Shown: positions 4,013 through 20,657 of the stretch, in pieces
Numbering within the stretch: position 1 is the stretch's first letter
How the letters are laid out: every line of letters starts with the position of its first letter
IMG/VR virus record: IMGVR_UViG_3300034378_000218
Coordinates: 1 to 20,914 of that record
DNA: 20,914 bases
Origin: a virus
Direction: 5' to 3' (one strand)
Position numbers and translations under genes: made by a program
Notes under the pieces: generated by a model
Database searches by the model: none
Seen by the model: the letters and a program-made list of their open reading frames with translations, nothing else
Told to the model about the DNA's origin: nothing

Positions 4013-4041
4013 TTGACAAATATGTCATTTGCTGATACAAT
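4013..4041 (+). promoter_or_regulatory. Sigma70-type promoter of the RHH gene
   Basis: TTGACA (4013-4018), 17 bases, TACAAT (4036-4041). The transcript should start near 4048, only about six bases before the ATG at 4054, so the regulator may be translated from a nearly leaderless mRNA. The promoter matches 20 of 29 positions of the one at 206-234. Confidence 0.8.
4014..4027. promoter_or_regulatory. Candidate operator TGACA-N4-TGTCA
   Basis: A perfect inverted repeat, TGACA-AATA-TGTCA, overlaps the -35 box. Ribbon-helix-helix repressors commonly bind short inverted repeats over their own promoter, and the gene for one lies 27 bases downstream. The shorter form GACA-N4-TGTC recurs in the same register at 208-219. 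Binding is inferred. Confidence 0.5.
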
Positions 4042-4228: not shown

Positions 4229-4316
4229 GGGCAGTGAGCAATGGGTTACTTCGACAGTTAAAATCTATATAGTGATAAAGACTATATAGTTGTTTAATGT
4301 GTCCACGGGGCACGTT
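4229..4316 (+). ncRNA. Structured RNA module A (Y RNA candidate)
   Basis: The module begins GGGCAGTGAG and contains two strong hairpins: CTATATAGT/ACTATATAG (4265-4289) and AATGTGTCC/GGGCACGTT (4296-4316, nine pairs including G-U). Module B at 4531 has the same start and the second hairpin at the equivalent place with different bases but preserved pairing. Bacterial Ro60 genes typically sit beside genes for Y RNAs, some with tRNA-like modules. That link here is by position and structure only. Exact ends are unknown. Confidence 0.5.
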
Positions 4317-4456: not shown

Positions 4457-4529
4457 GAGATTGGGGCTACAATCTCTCAGTAACCAATCTGTAGAAGCCC
4501 TATCCCTTTAGGGATAAGGGAGTAGTCAC
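4457..4529 (+). ncRNA. TnpB omega-RNA-like scaffold, copy 1 (73 bp)
   Basis: These 73 bases are identical to 18702-18774. They form GAGATTG/CAATCTC with loop GGGCTA; that loop can pair with AGCCC further on as a pseudoknot. A second hairpin is CCCTATCCC-TTTA-GGGATAAGGG, and the element ends GTAGTCAC. From memory, this layout (GTAGAAGCCC, TTTA-loop hairpin, TCAC end) matches the right end of IS200/IS605-type elements, which is also the 3' scaffold of TnpB omega RNA. The guide would begin at 4530. No tnpB is nearby. Confidence 0.65.
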
Positions 4530-4530
4530 T

Positions 4531-4615
4531 CGGGCAGTGAGGATATGGGATACTTCGGAGATGCTGGATTCCCTATTCCAGTTAATGCGCCATGGCGCAT
4601 TATGTTCCCTGTCCG
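4531..4615 (+). ncRNA. Structured RNA module B, cloverleaf-like (Y RNA candidate)
   Basis: CGGGCAG (4531-4537) pairs with CTGTCCG (4609-4615) as a closing 7-bp stem. Inside lie CTGGA/TCCAG (4564-4581) and AATGCGC-CATG-GCGCATT (4584-4601), plus a first part (GTGAGGATATGGGATAC) shared with module A and containing AG...GGG like a D loop. The outline resembles a tRNA-like fold, as in YrlA-type Y RNAs, but no T-loop signature is seen. It begins right after scaffold copy 1, so its first bases would also be the guide. Confidence 0.5.
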
Positions 4616-4662: not shown

Positions 4663-5400
4663 ATGCCGAGATTCAATGTAAAATCCAGCCAAGAAAGCAA
4701 GACCATCAATCTGGCTGACGGCGAGGCCTTCCAGGAGTCGCCCAAGCTAGAATTCATATCCATCCTTTTAACCTCTTTTATCAAAGATAAATACTATCGC
4801 TGTGCGGACGACACAATCAAGAGGCTCATCGAGCTGACGGAATCCATTCCGGACAAGAAGTTCATCGCCAAGACGGCAATCTATGCGCGGAATGAATTCG
4901 GGATGAGATCCGTGTCCCATCTGGTGGCAGGCGAGGTAGCCAGGCTGGTCAAGGGCCAGCAATGGACCAAGCGGTTCTTCGACAAGGTGATACACCGCGT
5001 GGACGACATCACTGAGACATTGGCGTATTATCTAGACAGATACAGGAAGCCCATACCCAACGCGATGAAGAAAGGCTTGGCGCGCGCGTTTGACAAATTC
5101 GACGCATATCAGCTGGCGAAGTACAGGGGAGAGGGTGCCGCTGTGTCTTTGGTCGACGCGATGAATCTGGTCCATCCGATTCCGACGGAAAAGAATGAGG
5201 CTGCGTTGAGGATGCTGGTTGCTGGAACATTGAAGTCAGAAGGCACCTGGGAGGCGAGGCTCACCAAGGCAGGCCAGGAGGCACAGGTTCAGGATAAAAA
5301 ATTAGACAAGAAAAAAACATGGGAGGAAATAATTGATATGTGGATAATTACTTTACCAGAGGAAGATAGAGAACTGGAGACAGAATTTAAAAGTGCCTAA
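4663..5400 (+). CDS. rsr: Ro60 N-terminal half (TROVE domain)
   Basis: The 245-residue product matches the TROVE HEAT-repeat ring of Ro60 (KKFIAKTAIYARNEFGMRSV, WTKRFFDKVIHRVDD). Ro60 binds Y RNAs and the ends of misfolded RNAs. AGGAGG precedes ATG 4663. Homology should continue past KTWEEIID, but after about codon 226 (base 5340) 19 unrelated residues lead to TAA. The remaining part of the protein restarts at 6324. From about 5290 the coding becomes AT-rich. The fragment could pair with the second half. Confidence 0.85.
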   Translation: MPRFNVKSSQESKTINLADGEAFQESPKLEFISILLTSFIKDKYYRCADDTIKRLIELTESIPDKKFIAKTAIYARNEFGMRSVSHLVAGEVARLVKGQQWTKRFFDKVIHRVDDITETLAYYLDRYRKPIPNAMKKGLARAFDKFDAYQLAKYRGEGAAVSLVDAMNLVHPIPTEKNEAALRMLVAGTLKSEGTWEARLTKAGQEAQVQDKKLDKKKTWEEIIDMWIITLPEEDRELETEFKSA

Positions 5401-6175
5401 ATGTATGATTTGCAAAGAAAATTTTAGACAGATTACTGGTACGCATTTACAGAGAAAACATGAAATTAGAACTGTAGCTGAATATAAAAAAATATATCCA
5501 TATGCCTTAATTATAGACGGAGATATTTCTAATAGATTAAGAAATAATTTTTTAAAAACAAAAAATAAATATCCTGATAAAATTGGATTTAAGAAAGGAG
5601 AAGGTCAGAGGAAAGAATTTATTTCTTGGAATAAAGGATTAACTAAGGAAGTTGATAGAAGAATTTATAAACAATCGATAAATCAGAGAGGGCCATTTAC
5701 AGAAGAACATCGGCGAAAAATATCTGAGACAAGAACTAAACGTCAAAAATATGAACATTGTATTAAGTGTGGTGTTAAGAAAGGAAAAACAACTAGAAAG
5801 TTATGTATTTTTTGTGCTCGAAAAAAATTAATAACGAAAAAAGATTATATCAATCCAATGAAAGGCAGAGAGATATCAGATGAACATAAAAGGAAATTAT
5901 GGGGTGGATGGAAAACAAGATATACTAAACCTGAGTTAAAGGTTTTAAATAGTTATTCTAACCTTATTTATACAGGAGATGGAAAATTATGGATATCTTT
6001 TAGAGATGGAAGTTGTAAAAATCCAGATATAGTTTACTTGCATCCTAAATATAAAATAGCAATAGAGATATTTGGTGATTATTGGCACAGAAATGATGAT
6101 CCAGAGGAAACTAAAGAGAAATATAGTAAAGTAGGATGGCGTTGTTTAATTTTATGGGAACATCAGGTAAATTAA
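5393..6175 (+). CDS. Vsr-like (EDxHD) homing endonuclease
   Basis: Domain order in the 260 residues: a C2H2 finger (C4, C7, H18, H23), two NUMOD3-like DNA-binding segments (about 98-113 and 152-170), a four-cysteine knuckle between them (about 122-140), and a C-terminal nuclease with E near 180 (KPE), NPDIVY, then IEIFGDYWH. The last part matches the Vsr-like PD-(D/E)xK homing nucleases such as I-Bth0305I. GTG 5393 overlaps the Ro60-N stop. The gene is strongly AT-rich. An in-frame TAA at 6173 cuts off about 45 residues (see next entry). Confidence 0.8.
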   Translation: MPKCMICKENFRQITGTHLQRKHEIRTVAEYKKIYPYALIIDGDISNRLRNNFLKTKNKYPDKIGFKKGEGQRKEFISWNKGLTKEVDRRIYKQSINQRGPFTEEHRRKISETRTKRQKYEHCIKCGVKKGKTTRKLCIFCARKKLITKKDYINPMKGREISDEHKRKLWGGWKTRYTKPELKVLNSYSNLIYTGDGKLWISFRDGSCKNPDIVYLHPKYKIAIEIFGDYWHRNDDPEETKEKYSKVGWRCLILWEHQVN

Positions 6176-6313
6176 TGGTATAGAGAGAAGATTTTATGTG
6201 AAATTATAAATCAATTTATAAATTATGATGAATATTTTCCACATAGAGCAAAGAATGAGAAAGAATACGGTTCAATGTTTATTTATAATTTAAATAAATT
6301 TTTAATGCTTTAA
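6176..6313 (+). pseudogene. Severed C-terminal tail of the homing endonuclease
   Basis: Directly after the TAA at 6173 the same frame stays open for 45 codons (beginning WYREKILCEIINQFI) to a TAA at 6311, eleven bases before the Ro60-C start. The composition is that of the endonuclease and the helix-rich start fits the expected end of a Vsr-like domain. A single C-to-T or G-to-T change (CAA or GAA to TAA) would explain it. Readthrough is possible but unsupported. Confidence 0.6.
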
Positions 6314-6323
6314 AGGAGATATT

Positions 6324-7085
6324 ATGATTGTTAAAAATTATTTTGCAATTTTAAGGAATCTCCGTAATATTTTAGAAGCTGAAGTAGATGATTATCATTT
6401 AAATAAAGTTATTAAGGCGCTATCTTTTGAACCAGCTATTAGAAAATCGCTAGTATTGCCTTTTAGATTCACAACCGCATTGGACGAGATAGAGAAGACA
6501 AATCTAGATGGAGCGAAGGATGTGCTGGTTGCGCTGAACAATGCAGTGGACATCTCGTTGAAGAACGTGCCGGTGTTCGAGGGCAAGACGCTGGTGGTTT
6601 TGGACCAGTCGGGCTCGATGCATGGCAGGCCCGCGCAGATAGGCAGCCTGTTCGCGGCAGTTTTGGTCAAGTCCAACAACGCCGATTTGATGACATTCAG
6701 CAACGACGCCAGATACAAGACAATAAATCCGATGGACAGTATTATCACTATCGCCAGCAGCCTTCGGAGAGCCACTAATGGCACGAACTTCCACGCGATA
6801 TTCAAGACAGCAAACAAGGTATATCAAAGGATAATCATTCTTTCTGATATGCAGGGTTGGATAGGGTTCATGACGCCCGCCGCGGAATTTGCTGAGTACA
6901 AAAGAAAATACAATGCGGAGCCTTTTGTCTATTCGTTTGATCTAGCTGGCTATGGAACGTTGCAGCTGCCACAGCGAAATGTGTATTGTCTGGCAGGGTT
7001 TAGCGACAAGGTCTTCGATGTCATAAAGTTTCTGGAGACGGACAAAGAGGCGTTAATGCATGAAATTGAGAAAATCGAATTATAA
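6324..7085 (+). CDS. rsr: Ro60 C-terminal half (end of TROVE plus vWA domain)
   Basis: The 253-residue product begins with the TROVE segment NYFAILRNLRNILEAE, which in intact Ro60 proteins follows the part ending the first half. A von Willebrand A domain follows with a complete MIDAS: DQSGS (D94, S96, S98), T154 and D175 in ILSDMQ. An AAAGGAG site six bases before ATG 6324 allows independent translation. Both halves together give about 470 native residues, near normal Ro60 size. Coding is AT-rich to about 6475 and GC-richer after. Confidence 0.85.
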   Translation: MIVKNYFAILRNLRNILEAEVDDYHLNKVIKALSFEPAIRKSLVLPFRFTTALDEIEKTNLDGAKDVLVALNNAVDISLKNVPVFEGKTLVVLDQSGSMHGRPAQIGSLFAAVLVKSNNADLMTFSNDARYKTINPMDSIITIASSLRRATNGTNFHAIFKTANKVYQRIIILSDMQGWIGFMTPAAEFAEYKRKYNAEPFVYSFDLAGYGTLQLPQRNVYCLAGFSDKVFDVIKFLETDKEALMHEIEKIEL

Positions 7086-8197: not shown

Positions 8198-8226
8198 TTG
8201 ACAAAGCGGGGCTTTTCTGCTATACT
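8198..8226 (+). promoter_or_regulatory. Extended -10 promoter of the accessory operon
   Basis: TTGACA (8198-8203), 17 bases, TATACT (8221-8226), with TG one base upstream of the -10 box. The start near 8233 leaves a leader of about 27 bases to the ATG at 8260. It is the only clear promoter before a run of about 24 tightly packed genes. The preceding 110 bases (8085-8197) hold no recognised feature. Confidence 0.8.
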
Positions 8227-8259
8227 ATAAATTAAGAGATACAATGAAAGGTGGATGGC

Positions 8260-15866: not shown

Positions 15867-16793
15867 ATGGCAGATGATGATAAAAAAGATAATTCCGTAG
15901 ACGACAAAAATATAAAGACCTGGTTTGACGAAAGAGGCAGGCTTAAGGACAAATATGGCGACAAGCCAGTAGAGAAAATACCTGAGTTCGAGCCGCCATC
16001 CGAAAAGAGAGTTGATGAGGCTAAAGAGGAAAAAAGAAAGGTTCTCTCTCAGGACGGTATGGATTTATCCAAAGTCTCGGACCTCGAATACTTATATGAT
16101 ATCTTCAATCCTAAATTCGATAGATATGGCTCCTTGGATTATCTCAAGAAGACCCGCGAGCGGATGCTCAAAGATGGTTATCTTGACACTCCTACCTTAA
16201 ACGAATTTCTTTTCTATTCTACACTATCCCGTAGACTTCAGGTTGTGTATCAAAGGATGCATGCCGCGCTGGATCAGCACTCAGGCCCTGAGGAGGCGCC
16301 TGAAGACCTAGGTTTTCTTAGTGACATGCAGAAGATTACAGATCGCATCACCAAGTTGCAGCAGGCTCTGGACGTACAGAAAGACAGGTCAGAGAAGGTG
16401 CGTGATATAATGGATTTGCACCAGGAGACCATGGAAAAGGCCGAGAAGTACCTGACGCAGCATCTGGGCGAGTTTGCCACAATACATCCAGATGGCAATA
16501 TTCTGTCGGACGATGCCAAATTGCACTGGGCGTTTGTAAGGGAGGTTATGAAAGATAGTGGAGAGGTGGAGACTGTGATTTGGTCTGAGGAATTGATGCA
16601 TCTATTCAAGAAGAAATTGATACCGATTGAATATGTGGCGTTTGCGCTCCGCACCTCGCCCGAGGGCTTGCAATGGATCGCTAAGAAGCGCGGGGAGAAA
16701 CTGCCGTACTTCGATATCATAAAGGCAGAGAACAATCTGAGGGAATTAATGCTTGAGATGGAGGACAAACGCAAGGTAGACATAAAGCAATGA
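15867..16793 (+). CDS. Putative terminase small subunit or packaging protein
   Basis: The 308-residue protein is highly charged with a disordered N-terminus (about 1-60), then helices, including a long heptad-rich one (about 150-210). It overlaps the terminase large subunit start by four bases (ATGA). Small terminase subunits usually lie directly before the large one, but they are mostly shorter and carry an HTH, which I do not see. The role rests on position alone. Confidence 0.5.
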   Translation: MADDDKKDNSVDDKNIKTWFDERGRLKDKYGDKPVEKIPEFEPPSEKRVDEAKEEKRKVLSQDGMDLSKVSDLEYLYDIFNPKFDRYGSLDYLKKTRERMLKDGYLDTPTLNEFLFYSTLSRRLQVVYQRMHAALDQHSGPEEAPEDLGFLSDMQKITDRITKLQQALDVQKDRSEKVRDIMDLHQETMEKAEKYLTQHLGEFATIHPDGNILSDDAKLHWAFVREVMKDSGEVETVIWSEELMHLFKKKLIPIEYVAFALRTSPEGLQWIAKKRGEKLPYFDIIKAENNLRELMLEMEDKRKVDIKQ

Positions 16794-18454
16794 GAGAGCC
16801 TACACTAAAGCAAGTTTTGGCGTATTATATTATCTTTAAAAGTACGATTATGTTTCGGGACTTCTGGTTGCCCAAGGCCTGGGGTAAGGTCTACAAGACC
16901 AGATATTATCAGTATCCGATGGCCCTAGCTAAGGATGCCGTAGTGATTGGAGGTAGATCCTGGGGCAAATCAGTGGATTTGGAATCAACCATCTTACAGA
17001 ATGCGCTTAACATACCTGCTGTTGAATCTTTATTGAGCGCTTTCCGCAAGATTCATATCAGGGATAGGCTGGAGAAGGTGATTAGTTATTTGACCGCTGT
17101 GAAGTATTTCCGTAAATTTTTGGCCGTTGGTTCAGATAAGACCACAAAGGGCGCCGTGAGGCGCCATCCTACATATGAGATAACATTGAAGAACAGGCAT
17201 GTTATTTATGGCGTTTCTACCGGCGATGATCCTATGGCGATTATGATACAGGGGCTCCATCCGAGATGCCGGTATATCGAAGAAGCGTCAGCATTTAGAC
17301 GAGATGCCTGGATAAAATTCCAGGCAGCTCGAGACCCTCAGATGGTTATTGACCGTATCTCAGGGACCACTGATGGTTTTATTGATTCGCCTTTTTTTGA
17401 CTGCGATACCAAGATTTCAAAGTTCGAAGGCAAACGATTTCATGTCTCGCGCCGTATGGAGCCATGGTTTGATCGAGGCATAATGAAGGAATGCGTTGAG
17501 ACATATGGTGGCGAGGATACAAACGACTTCATCCAGCAGGTCGATGCTATGCATGGTGAACCTGTCTGGGGGCTCTGGAATGAGAAGGACATCATGCAAA
17601 ATATCGACAAGACGCAGCATCCGCAGTATCATGGCATGCCTCTGAATAAATTACAGACTATAAACATCTCCGCGGAGGACTATAAAGGTAAGGTCCCGGA
17701 GCAAGTGCTATGGGAACTGCCGCCGTTGCCAGAGAGCGACCTCGAGGTCATACTCGGCATCGATGCCGGCTATGTCTCGCCTACAGTAGTGTTGCCTTTT
17801 TTCTGGTACAAAGGCAAATGGAATCTGAGATGCCGAATCAACTTGATAGACAAGATGATTCCGGACAATCAGGCTGAGATTATAGATTCTATCGCGGATA
17901 GATACAGTGCGATTATCATAGCATTTGATACTACATCTGCGGACGGCAGGTCAGTGGCACAGGCGTTGGCCAATCCCAAACGACGCGAGTTTGTCAACAA
18001 GAATTATCAGGAACGAATCGCATGGGTGAATTTCAATTCGGTCGAGATAGTAGGCTACAAGGACGTGACTAGTTTCTCTAGGGGTAAGGAGAGATCGGTA
18101 TACAAGGAGATTCACCAGAAGATAAAATACTTTGCCACTGACGAGCTGCACAAAAAGTTTGCCAATATGTTCTTCAATATTTATCACGACGAGGATTTAT
18201 TAGCCGAGTTTAATGCGGAGCACCAGAAGCAGAGCCCTACCGGCAATATGCTCATTGTTACGCCTTCCAATGTGCATTTGCCAGAGGCCTTCAGATGCTT
18301 TGCCTACGGTTGGTGGAAAAAATATGGACAAAAAATCGACATGCCCAAACGGCGACAAGCCGAAGATTACGGATTCGCATTGCCAGGATATGGAGACAGT
18401 GGAATCTCGGTCTTCGGGCGTGGATCGCGCGGCACTAGTACAGAGTTTGGTTGA
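16790..18454 (+). CDS. terL: Terminase large subunit
   Basis: 554 residues with an N-terminal ATPase and C-terminal nuclease. Walker A is GGRSWGKS (54-61). A Walker B-like RYIEEAS lies near 161-167, with Glu where Asp is usual. The RNase H-like nuclease shows LGIDAG (D325) and IIIAFD (D380). The enzyme cuts concatemeric phage DNA and drives it into the prohead. The start overlaps the upstream gene (ATGA). Confidence 0.88.
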   Translation: MREPTLKQVLAYYIIFKSTIMFRDFWLPKAWGKVYKTRYYQYPMALAKDAVVIGGRSWGKSVDLESTILQNALNIPAVESLLSAFRKIHIRDRLEKVISYLTAVKYFRKFLAVGSDKTTKGAVRRHPTYEITLKNRHVIYGVSTGDDPMAIMIQGLHPRCRYIEEASAFRRDAWIKFQAARDPQMVIDRISGTTDGFIDSPFFDCDTKISKFEGKRFHVSRRMEPWFDRGIMKECVETYGGEDTNDFIQQVDAMHGEPVWGLWNEKDIMQNIDKTQHPQYHGMPLNKLQTINISAEDYKGKVPEQVLWELPPLPESDLEVILGIDAGYVSPTVVLPFFWYKGKWNLRCRINLIDKMIPDNQAEIIDSIADRYSAIIIAFDTTSADGRSVAQALANPKRREFVNKNYQERIAWVNFNSVEIVGYKDVTSFSRGKERSVYKEIHQKIKYFATDELHKKFANMFFNIYHDEDLLAEFNAEHQKQSPTGNMLIVTPSNVHLPEAFRCFAYGWWKKYGQKIDMPKRRQAEDYGFALPGYGDSGISVFGRGSRGTSTEFG

Positions 18455-18596
18455 TGACATAGGCATTTCCAACGGCGATATAGAGATTAGGGTCCAGAAT
18501 GGAAACTGGGTATATGTCAGGTTTTTTGTGGGCTTTAAGAGGAATGAGGAGGCGGATTTTCAAAATTTTGGCTTTTATCTGCAAAAGGGTAGTTGA
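18324..18596 (+). CDS. Small protein overlapping the terminase end
   Basis: Past the terminase stop, a second frame stays open to TGA 18594, with residues such as IEIRVQNGNWVYVRFFVGFKR that look genuine (beta hairpin). Possible starts are ATG 18324 (GGTGG eight bases upstream, 90 residues) and ATG 18390 (68 residues). With the first, 131 bases overlap terL. The stop codon overlaps the -35 box of the downstream RNA promoter. Confidence 0.5.
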   Translation: MDKKSTCPNGDKPKITDSHCQDMETVESRSSGVDRAALVQSLVDDIGISNGDIEIRVQNGNWVYVRFFVGFKRNEEADFQNFGFYLQKGS

Positions 18597-18621
18597 CAAA
18601 CTTGCTATTTTATGTTAGGAT
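18593..18621 (+). promoter_or_regulatory. Extended -10 promoter of the 240-base RNA
   Basis: TTGACA (18593-18598), 17 bases, TAGGAT (18616-18621), with TG one base before the -10 box. Transcription should begin near 18628. The next gene starts at 18879 and an intrinsic terminator stands between, so the promoter primarily makes a short RNA. Confidence 0.75.
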
Positions 18622-18701
18622 TAAACTGGATAAGTATAAATAAAGGCTGTTTCTGGTCAGGTTGACCTGAAGGAATCAGCAGCGATATTTTTTTATGCAT
18701 C

Positions 18702-18774
18702 GAGATTGGGGCTACAATCTCTCAGTAACCAATCTGTAGAAGCCCTATCCCTTTAGGGATAAGGGAGTAGTCAC
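18702..18774 (+). ncRNA. TnpB omega-RNA-like scaffold, copy 2 (73 bp)
   Basis: Identical in all 73 positions to 4457-4529; identity stops sharply at both ends. Hairpin GAGATTG/CAATCTC, pseudoknot option GGGCT with AGCCC, hairpin CCCTATCCC-TTTA-GGGAT-A-AGGG, terminal GTAGTCAC. The 3' neighbour bases differ between copies, as guides would. No transposase gene or left end is present. Confidence 0.65.
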
Positions 18775-18799
18775 ATAGTCTCGGTGGTATAGTACCTAT

Positions 18800-18871
18800 A
18801 AGCCGAGCGCGGTATTACTAATGTCTTTAGGGGGATTGGGCATTAGCGATACCCGCTCGGCTTTTTTATTT
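18800..18871 (+). terminator. Intrinsic terminator with alternative hairpin
   Basis: AAGCCGAGCG(C)GGTAT pairs with ATACCCGCTCGGCTT, enclosing a further 8-bp stem CTAATGTC/GGCATTAG, and is followed by TTTTTTATTTT. The 5' arm's CCGAG (18803-18807) can instead pair with CTCGG (18780-18784), giving a smaller hairpin that would break the terminator. This arrangement is that of an attenuator. Confidence 0.8.
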
Positions 18872-18878
18872 TACAGAA

Positions 18879-20657
18879 ATGTCCAACAACAATAATCCAA
18901 AACAAAAGCAGAAAAGAACACCGTTTATCAAAGATGACAGTAATCTAATAAAGGCGATATCCAACGAGACGCATGTGCTCTGGGGCTCGATGCCCGCGGA
19001 GGAAGAGGCGCGCTACGCCTATGGAATCACAAAGAACAAAGACGGGAAGCAATTCATAAAGACCTCCCGTACCGACTACGGCCGGCCAATCGACATCCGC
19101 ATCCCCTATGGATACCACGCCCAGGTCAAGAAGTCCTGGGAGATGTATAGCATGGATAGGATGTTCCGGTATATGATTGACCGTTGCATAGACTTTGGCG
19201 CAAACGGCTTCGAATGGGAAATTCCATTTCAGGTGCCACCTAAGGAGTCGCTATGGGATTTTCTCCAGACCCGCCAGATCAGCAAGTATGTCGCCAAAAT
19301 AGAGCGTCAGAAAGAAGTCTGGAATTTCTGGGCCGCGAATGTCAACACACGCACATCGAATATCCTGCCTGGTATCGATGAGATAAACAAGTGGATTTTC
19401 AAGCAGTTGCTTCTAGGCGCGATGTGTCCTCTGGAGTGGCAGTGGAAGCAGGTGGAGATAAACGGCGAGACATACGAGCTACCTATGAAGATGACGAACT
19501 ACAATACGCTGTCCACTGTGCTACGCAAGAACGTCAATGTATTTGGCAACGAGCAGATTTACATCAAGTTGAATCCCTATCAGCTGAAGCAAACCATCCA
19601 GCCACATGCGGATATCACCAGGCAAGTATCCACATATTCCCAGCCTAAGGATAATAGCCCAGAGTGGCACAAGGTGAATATGTTCGGCCTAGGCAATGGG
19701 AATCCGAAGACCGAGGGCTTCGCAATCAAATACAATTGGTCGCCGGGCGATAACACCACATTGATATCCGGCACGGCCGTTACGGTCGGCTCTGGCCTAT
19801 ATCCTATCCCGCCGTTTCTAGGTTTGTATGAGACGTTGATGTTAAGGCGTGCATTGCATGCCGCGGATCTGGCCATACTTGATGGCGTGATCAATTATAT
19901 AGTCGATTGGGAGATTGGCGATGCTACGACTGATGCAGATGGCAATCTGGTCAACCAGCCGAGGCCCGAGCGCAAGAGCGCGGCCGGCGCGGTGATTGAG
20001 AAGTCGACGATTGACCTGGTCAAGGAGATGATAACCGAGAGCACTCGTGCCAATGTGATGCAATTGTTTCATCCTTATTATATCAAGCTGAACATCAAGA
20101 CACCTGATGTCACGTCTTTGATTTCGATTGAAAAGTATATTCATCCTACTGTTGAGATATTGAATGCCTTCGGGATATTCCTTTCGCCTACAGACAGGCG
20201 AGTGAACTTTACCGATATCAACATCGCGAATTTCGAGCAGATGCTCGACAATATAAGGCGCAATCATATCAAAAGATTCTGGGAGACATTGTGTACCGAG
20301 ATAGTCAGGAGGAATCCAAGGAAGTTCAATGCGGTGCCCAATATGATATTCAATCCCTTGAATACACAGGACGAGGGATTCAGGGAGGGTCTGCTTGAGC
20401 TCACTCGGTTCGGCAAACTGTCTGGCGAGTCGTTACTCCAAGCCTTCAAAAAGGATAATAAGACCGAAGTGAGCAGGATTGCAAAGGAGCTGCATTCGGG
20501 TGAAAAGGCTATGATGGATGAGAACGTGCCTGTAAGCTATGTGCAAAGGGCGCAGGCGGCAAGGGGCAATGTGTCGCAAACCGAGATAACCCCATTGCAG
20601 CAAGAAGGCAGGCCTAAGAAGCCTAAGAAAAAAAAGAGAAAAGAGGAGGAGGACTGA
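18879..20657 (+). CDS. Portal-like protein
   Basis: The 592-residue protein follows terL, has no membrane segment or enzyme motif, and shows the long helical centre and charged C-terminus (KKPKKKKRKEEED) of portal proteins. Segments such as WEIGDATTD and NVMQLFHPYY recall the DUF935/Mu gp29-type portals, but that is a memory-based comparison. Portals form the dodecameric DNA channel of the head. No ribosome binding site precedes ATG 18879, which lies eight bases after the terminator's T-run. Confidence 0.7.
   Translation: MSNNNNPKQKQKRTPFIKDDSNLIKAISNETHVLWGSMPAEEEARYAYGITKNKDGKQFIKTSRTDYGRPIDIRIPYGYHAQVKKSWEMYSMDRMFRYMIDRCIDFGANGFEWEIPFQVPPKESLWDFLQTRQISKYVAKIERQKEVWNFWAANVNTRTSNILPGIDEINKWIFKQLLLGAMCPLEWQWKQVEINGETYELPMKMTNYNTLSTVLRKNVNVFGNEQIYIKLNPYQLKQTIQPHADITRQVSTYSQPKDNSPEWHKVNMFGLGNGNPKTEGFAIKYNWSPGDNTTLISGTAVTVGSGLYPIPPFLGLYETLMLRRALHAADLAILDGVINYIVDWEIGDATTDADGNLVNQPRPERKSAAGAVIEKSTIDLVKEMITESTRANVMQLFHPYYIKLNIKTPDVTSLISIEKYIHPTVEILNAFGIFLSPTDRRVNFTDINIANFEQMLDNIRRNHIKRFWETLCTEIVRRNPRKFNAVPNMIFNPLNTQDEGFREGLLELTRFGKLSGESLLQAFKKDNKTEVSRIAKELHSGEKAMMDENVPVSYVQRAQAARGNVSQTEITPLQQEGRPKKPKKKKRKEEED

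Follow-up and report, generated by a model that had tools for sequence, protein, structure and literature searches.

A candidate cis-acting attenuator, carrying a TnpB ωRNA core in one member, between the putative terL and portal genes of a group of uncultivated phages

The DNA considered here, referred to as the window, is the whole of IMG/VR virus record IMGVR_UViG_3300034378_000218, a 20.9-kb record of 20,914 nucleotides which may be a fragment. On its plus strand lie a gene for a 554-residue terminase large subunit (terL, 16790–18454), and one for a 592-residue portal protein (18879–20657). Between terL and the promoter described below is a small open reading frame (18390–18596) whose start is uncertain. 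The initial annotation had placed the locus at the terL–portal junction; the two gene names are tentative and come from the gene order, from a major head protein encoded downstream in the relative L003 (E 1e-41) and from weak matches of relatives' proteins to PHROG profiles, for the terminase large subunit (E 0.002) and, in a single relative, the portal (E 0.033). An AlphaFold model of the portal built from seven sequences had a mean pLDDT of 37 and was not used. The portal gene of the window has no evident Shine-Dalgarno sequence. The TerL of L003 (3213–5513) carries an intein-like insertion of some 200 residues between the motifs GGRSFGK and SVGLE.

A σ70-type promoter at 18593–18621 (+) follows terL. 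It consists of TTGACA, starting at 18593 and overlapping the TGA stop codon of the small open reading frame, a 17-nt spacer and TAGGAT, preceded by the TG of an extended −10 element (TG-T-TAGGAT, ending at 18621). Its score, the best in the terL–portal gap, was equalled in 10 of 500 dinucleotide shuffles. Transcript starts and stops are predicted from sequence: a start at 18628, 7 nt past the −10 element, gives a leader RNA of about 240 nt (18628–18867, +), of which about 167 nt are left when an insert discussed below is subtracted. A transcript of 244 nt is predicted to fold with −95.3 kcal/mol (z = −6.9 against shuffles), and the z-score of the leader is still −5.5 when the insert is removed. 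The leader ends in an intrinsic terminator (18800–18867, +), composed of a hairpin at 18800–18861 (−37.3 kcal/mol) and the U-tract TTTTTT at 18862–18867, beyond which the portal is the first gene. None of 40 shuffles matched this terminator, and no other U-tract hairpin in the whole window comes within 13 kcal/mol of its stability; it escaped a simple terminator scan on account of its 11-nt loop. Thus the extended −10 promoter, the 240 or so structured bases and the strong terminator reported in the initial annotation are all confirmed, at the coordinates given there. Rfam searches found no match inside the unit at the gathering threshold; across the window, with gathering and permissive thresholds, only a tRNA-Tyr at 2365 passed, the best hits of the unit being chance microRNA matches.

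Six distinct IMG/VR phages (L003, L005, L029, L030, L031 and L034) were recovered as relatives through portal and TerL alignments. Their portals are 48–54% identical to that of the window. Searches of the phage records with a single TerL query, with blastn and with tblastn yielded no close relatives, and protein alignments were needed. Promoter and terminator occupy the same place in all seven members, so that the self-contained promoter–RNA–terminator unit proposed at the outset recurs throughout the group; it is absent from the more distant relatives L008 and L040. In the six relatives, terL is followed by TTGACA-N17-TATAAT or TATACT, with the 17-nt spacing of the window and scores of 11–12 out of 12; the full score, found in L003, L005 and L030, was reached by none of 500 shuffles. 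The strict pattern TTGACA-17-TATAMT occurs once in each relative's record of 4–44 kb, always at the unit promoter, while the records of 135 and 175 kb contain four and three matches, respectively, the unit promoter being among them in each case. The sole match to this strict late-promoter pattern in the window is a TTGACA-17-TATACT promoter at 8198–8226, ahead of a gene block starting near 8244.

The body of the RNA is a different matter. It varies from 97 to 277 nt across the members and could not be aligned by MAFFT on the leaders. The small open reading frame lies ahead of the promoter in the window, L003 and L029, whereas in L031 and L034 a small open reading frame is found 3' of the promoter, inside the transcript. 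These two leader frames (L031, 4461–4634; L034, 6272–6421) have weak similarity to DUF2292, below the cut-off (E 0.13 and 0.024). In every member the U-tract starts 8–20 nt upstream of the portal ATG, and therefore an ordinary leadered portal transcript must cross the terminator. As promoter, terminator and position are kept while the body cannot be aligned, selection appears to act on position and pairing, which points to a function in cis.

A bulged hairpin of about 28 nt is found in four of the seven units, those of the window, L003, L029 and L034. Its topology comprises six outer pairs, 2 nt, four to five inner pairs, a loop of 3–5 nt, a single A and the outer 3' strand. In the window, the candidate antiterminator at 18780–18807 (+; copy 2) reads CUCGGU-GG-UAUAGUACCUAUA-A-GCCGAG, and its 3' strand doubles as the terminator 5' arm; hairpin and terminator are therefore mutually exclusive. 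The equivalent copies in L003 (5744–5771), L029 (6905–6933) and L034 (6433–6460) likewise overlap the terminator, each of the four ending 6–7 nt into its arm. A further copy is present nearer the promoter in two units. In the window this copy 1 (18646–18680, +) begins at about +19 and reads UUCU-GG-UCAGG-UUGA-CCUGA-A-GGAA, extended by GCUG/CAGC across a U-U mismatch; its core (18649–18677) has one outer-stem mismatch. The first copy in L029 (6868–6897) also lies at about +19. The two hairpins are separated by about 102 nt in the window, insert included, compared with 7 nt in L029. No hairpin of this 2×1 topology is found in L005, L030 or L031, in either the strict form or a relaxed form with the signature.

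When leaders were folded up to the terminator loop, pairing of the terminator arm with upstream sequence was stronger than in shuffles, with p values of 0.03 for the window, 0.007 for L003, 0.027 for L034 and 0.075 for L029. Shuffling the sequence upstream of an unchanged arm produced the strict hairpin form at most five times per 10,000 (≤5e-4 per leader). Across the six copies, which differ in their bases, 59 of 60 pair cells are kept, and none of 20,000 column shuffles exceeds 49. MAFFT did not align the copies by structure, so the pairs were counted by script on a hand-set topology, with the selection bias that this entails. The bulged A and the G that follows it are invariant in all six. 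A scan of 193 kb with a descriptor of this signature, allowing up to two non-Watson-Crick pairs, gave eight sites, and six of them are these leader copies. These statistics are partly post hoc, the topology having been drawn from the sequences under test. Folding of truncated RNAs gives the hairpin a probability of about 0.74–1.0 before the terminator 3' arm is complete, and the terminator one of 0.7–0.98 afterwards. A single departure is seen when the window RNA stops at 18807, the earliest truncation point: the hairpin then has a probability of 0.03 because part of the insert competes, and by 18836 it has returned to 0.99.

The insert accounts for 73 of the roughly 240 nt and was overlooked in the initial annotation. 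It occupies 18702–18774 (+) and is an exact repeat of 4457–4529 (+), upstream of a TROVE gene. A covariance model, R1, built from tnpB-linked relatives without window sequences, identifies both copies as the right end of an IS200/IS605-type element, which is also the 3' core of a TnpB ωRNA (72.2 bits, E 6e-18 for the leader copy; 73.7 bits, E 2.3e-18 for the other), and matches nothing else in the window. The block ends in a subterminal hairpin and GGGAGTAGTCAC, contains in addition an upstream hairpin and a CUAC-GUAG pseudoknot, and can be translated in frame into a TnpB C-terminus (LRLGLQSLSNQSVEA), all of which it shares with IS200/IS605 right ends and TnpB ωRNAs. Two hairpins and the pseudoknot are common to 15 such cores, in which 91.6% of pair cells are paired as against 73.5% in shuffles and the covariation score is 0.474 as against about 0.07 when slid; the end sequence is conserved, and the subterminal hairpin lies within about 10 nt of the end, with 93% of its cells paired. 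Many related cores, L014, L017, L022, L024 and L058 among them, map directly to the tnpB 3' end. By contrast, neither copy in the window adjoins a tnpB gene or a left end: no left end was recognised by eye, and no tnpB (PF07282) is present in the 20.9-kb record, itself possibly a fragment. On these features the block is classed as a right-end fragment and not a complete element. It is missing from the units of the six relatives and so most likely represents sequence inserted between hairpins 1 and 2. It would lengthen the leader while leaving the promoter, both hairpins and the terminator intact.

In other phage records, too, R1 finds cores that lie apart from any tnpB. They include L081, L082 and L083, near-identical elements of about 120 nt in one viral record of 68.6 kb (G012), each with a left-end hairpin and an ωRNA core. 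This record also has two tnpB genes, and the three are apparently mobile elements that carry the guide scaffold but no gene. A TTTAT motif stands 5' of some of the ωRNA mini-elements, and the same motif is present in the window at 18690–18694.

Ahead of the TROVE gene are two similar stretches (4229–4253 and 4532–4557; GGGCAGTGAG..ATGGG.TACTTCG), and the second core ends directly 5' of the latter. With promoters scoring 11 of 12 nearby, at 4013 and 4141, these stretches look like candidate Y-RNA-type genes; the Rfam Y-RNA family gave no match upstream of TROVE. The TROVE/Ro60-like gene itself is split (4663–7085), its N-terminal TROVE part running to 5400 and its C-terminal TROVE part with a vWA domain beginning at 6324. 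Between the halves is an open reading frame resembling a homing endonuclease (5393–6175; phrog_314, E 1.5e-6), and the split is likely to be due to an intron or similar element. TROVE is absent from the records of nine relatives.

Taken together, the unit is probably a cis-acting transcription attenuator, or antitermination switch, at the entry to the head-gene operon. A strong host-type promoter would start the leader RNA, which would first fold the bulged hairpin of about 28 nt that uses the terminator 5' arm as its own 3' strand. By default, the completed 3' arm of the terminator would displace this hairpin, producing a short terminated RNA. If the hairpin were held, whether by RNA polymerase or by a putative factor from phage or host, transcription would read through into the portal gene, the head protein gene and the rest. 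The terminator would also block transcription arriving from upstream genes. Against a switch, the hairpin is dispensable for the arrangement, as three of the seven units (L005, L030 and L031) lack it; the spacing of the two hairpins in the window is far wider than in L029, and the known antitermination factors considered below were not found in ten records, most of them fragments. It is suggested, tentatively, that the bulged hairpin may belong to a new class of phage antiterminator RNA, read by a phage factor or by RNA polymerase directly and gating late head-gene transcription in this group of uncultivated phages.

Parallels exist among known systems. Leaders recognised by ANTAR proteins (EutV, NasR, AmiR) contain two successive hairpins, the second of which overlaps the terminator stem, the two structures being mutually exclusive (PMC8934654). 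The window and L029 likewise carry two hairpin copies, the second overlapping and excluding the terminator. However, the ANTAR hexaloop with A1 and G4 is absent, the six copies having instead loops of 3–5 nt and a 2×1 asymmetric bulge with a 3' A; L003 and L034 carry a single hairpin, and the units here precede phage head genes. A search for ANTAR domains gave zero matches in these records and likewise zero in control genomes. The RAT antiterminator hairpin of LicT, SacY and BglG also overlaps and excludes a terminator (PMC3369936), and this exclusivity is shared, although the RAT stem has two asymmetric internal loops where each copy here has one 2×1 loop. The cognate CAT_RBD domain (PF03123) was not found in ten records, mostly fragments, while control genomes did give matches. 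In HK022, two put stem-loops form in the leader soon after the promoter (putL) and act on termination (PMC9378689). The pair of leader stem-loops near a promoter is similar, but put is defined by factor-independent processive antitermination through the β' zinc-binding domain, exerted on distant terminators in early transcription, whereas hairpin 2 shares the arm of the terminator itself. NusG (PF02357) was not found in the same ten records.

In lambda, the late promoter pR' is followed by the terminator tR', and a short terminated RNA (6S RNA) arises as a by-product. The units resemble this layout in having a strong promoter, a predicted short terminated RNA and late genes past the terminator. 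An arrangement of this type, in which a constitutive promoter makes a short RNA, a Q-like protein loaded at the promoter confers resistance to termination and the hairpins are incidental, would also account for promoter and terminator being kept in seven of seven units but the hairpin in just four. It is nevertheless unlikely, as it leaves the fixed register of the hairpin unexplained; by eye, the seven promoters have no conserved sequence between the −35 and −10 elements or soon after the start, and no match to Q families (PF06530, PF03589), Q being the lambda protein associated with late genes (PMC7171158), was found in any of the ten possibly incomplete records. The location between terL and portal and the terminator-arm hairpin are further differences from lambda. 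The three units without the hairpin would suit plain insulation, in which the terminator, separating the upstream block from the head genes in all seven members, halts transcription from upstream, and the strong promoter leaks enough read-through to give a modest, unregulated level of head-gene expression. This we regard as improbable, since the overlap of hairpin and terminator arm in four units is left without explanation.

The remaining readings assign a function to the RNA itself. The initial annotation expected a discrete, abundant RNA, and a short terminated RNA is still expected as a by-product of attenuation. A cis-acting leader is favoured over such a regulatory RNA because the body is variable and cannot be aligned, holds an open reading frame in two relatives and ends so close to the portal ATG. 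A trans-acting small RNA has little to commend it, despite the discrete promoter and terminator and the strongly structured transcript: 97–277 nt of unconserved sequence, the frames in L031 and L034 and the want of an Rfam match above threshold all speak against it. Finally, the 73-nt block could act as a promoter-driven guide RNA serving a TnpB encoded elsewhere. Processed ωRNAs stop at the right end, with the guide outside (PMC10278001), and therefore a guide in the window would start at 18775. The core is complete, with three helices and strong covariation, it lies downstream of a strong promoter and cores apart from tnpB occur in other phages. Yet this is a very remote prospect, given that the possibly fragmentary record has no tnpB, that no second site for either copy's guide exists in the window at up to two mismatches, that the same block recurs with a different flank, as expected of a transposon relic, and that it is missing from the relatives' units.

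To our knowledge, the timing of late gene expression in phages beyond the model systems is mostly unknown. The attenuator proposed here provides a candidate switch defined to the base pair, with mutations by which to test it and relatives with which to compare it. It also offers a case in which a TnpB ωRNA core has been inserted into a putative regulatory leader without destroying it, and in which a strong promoter would drive transcription of the transposon end.
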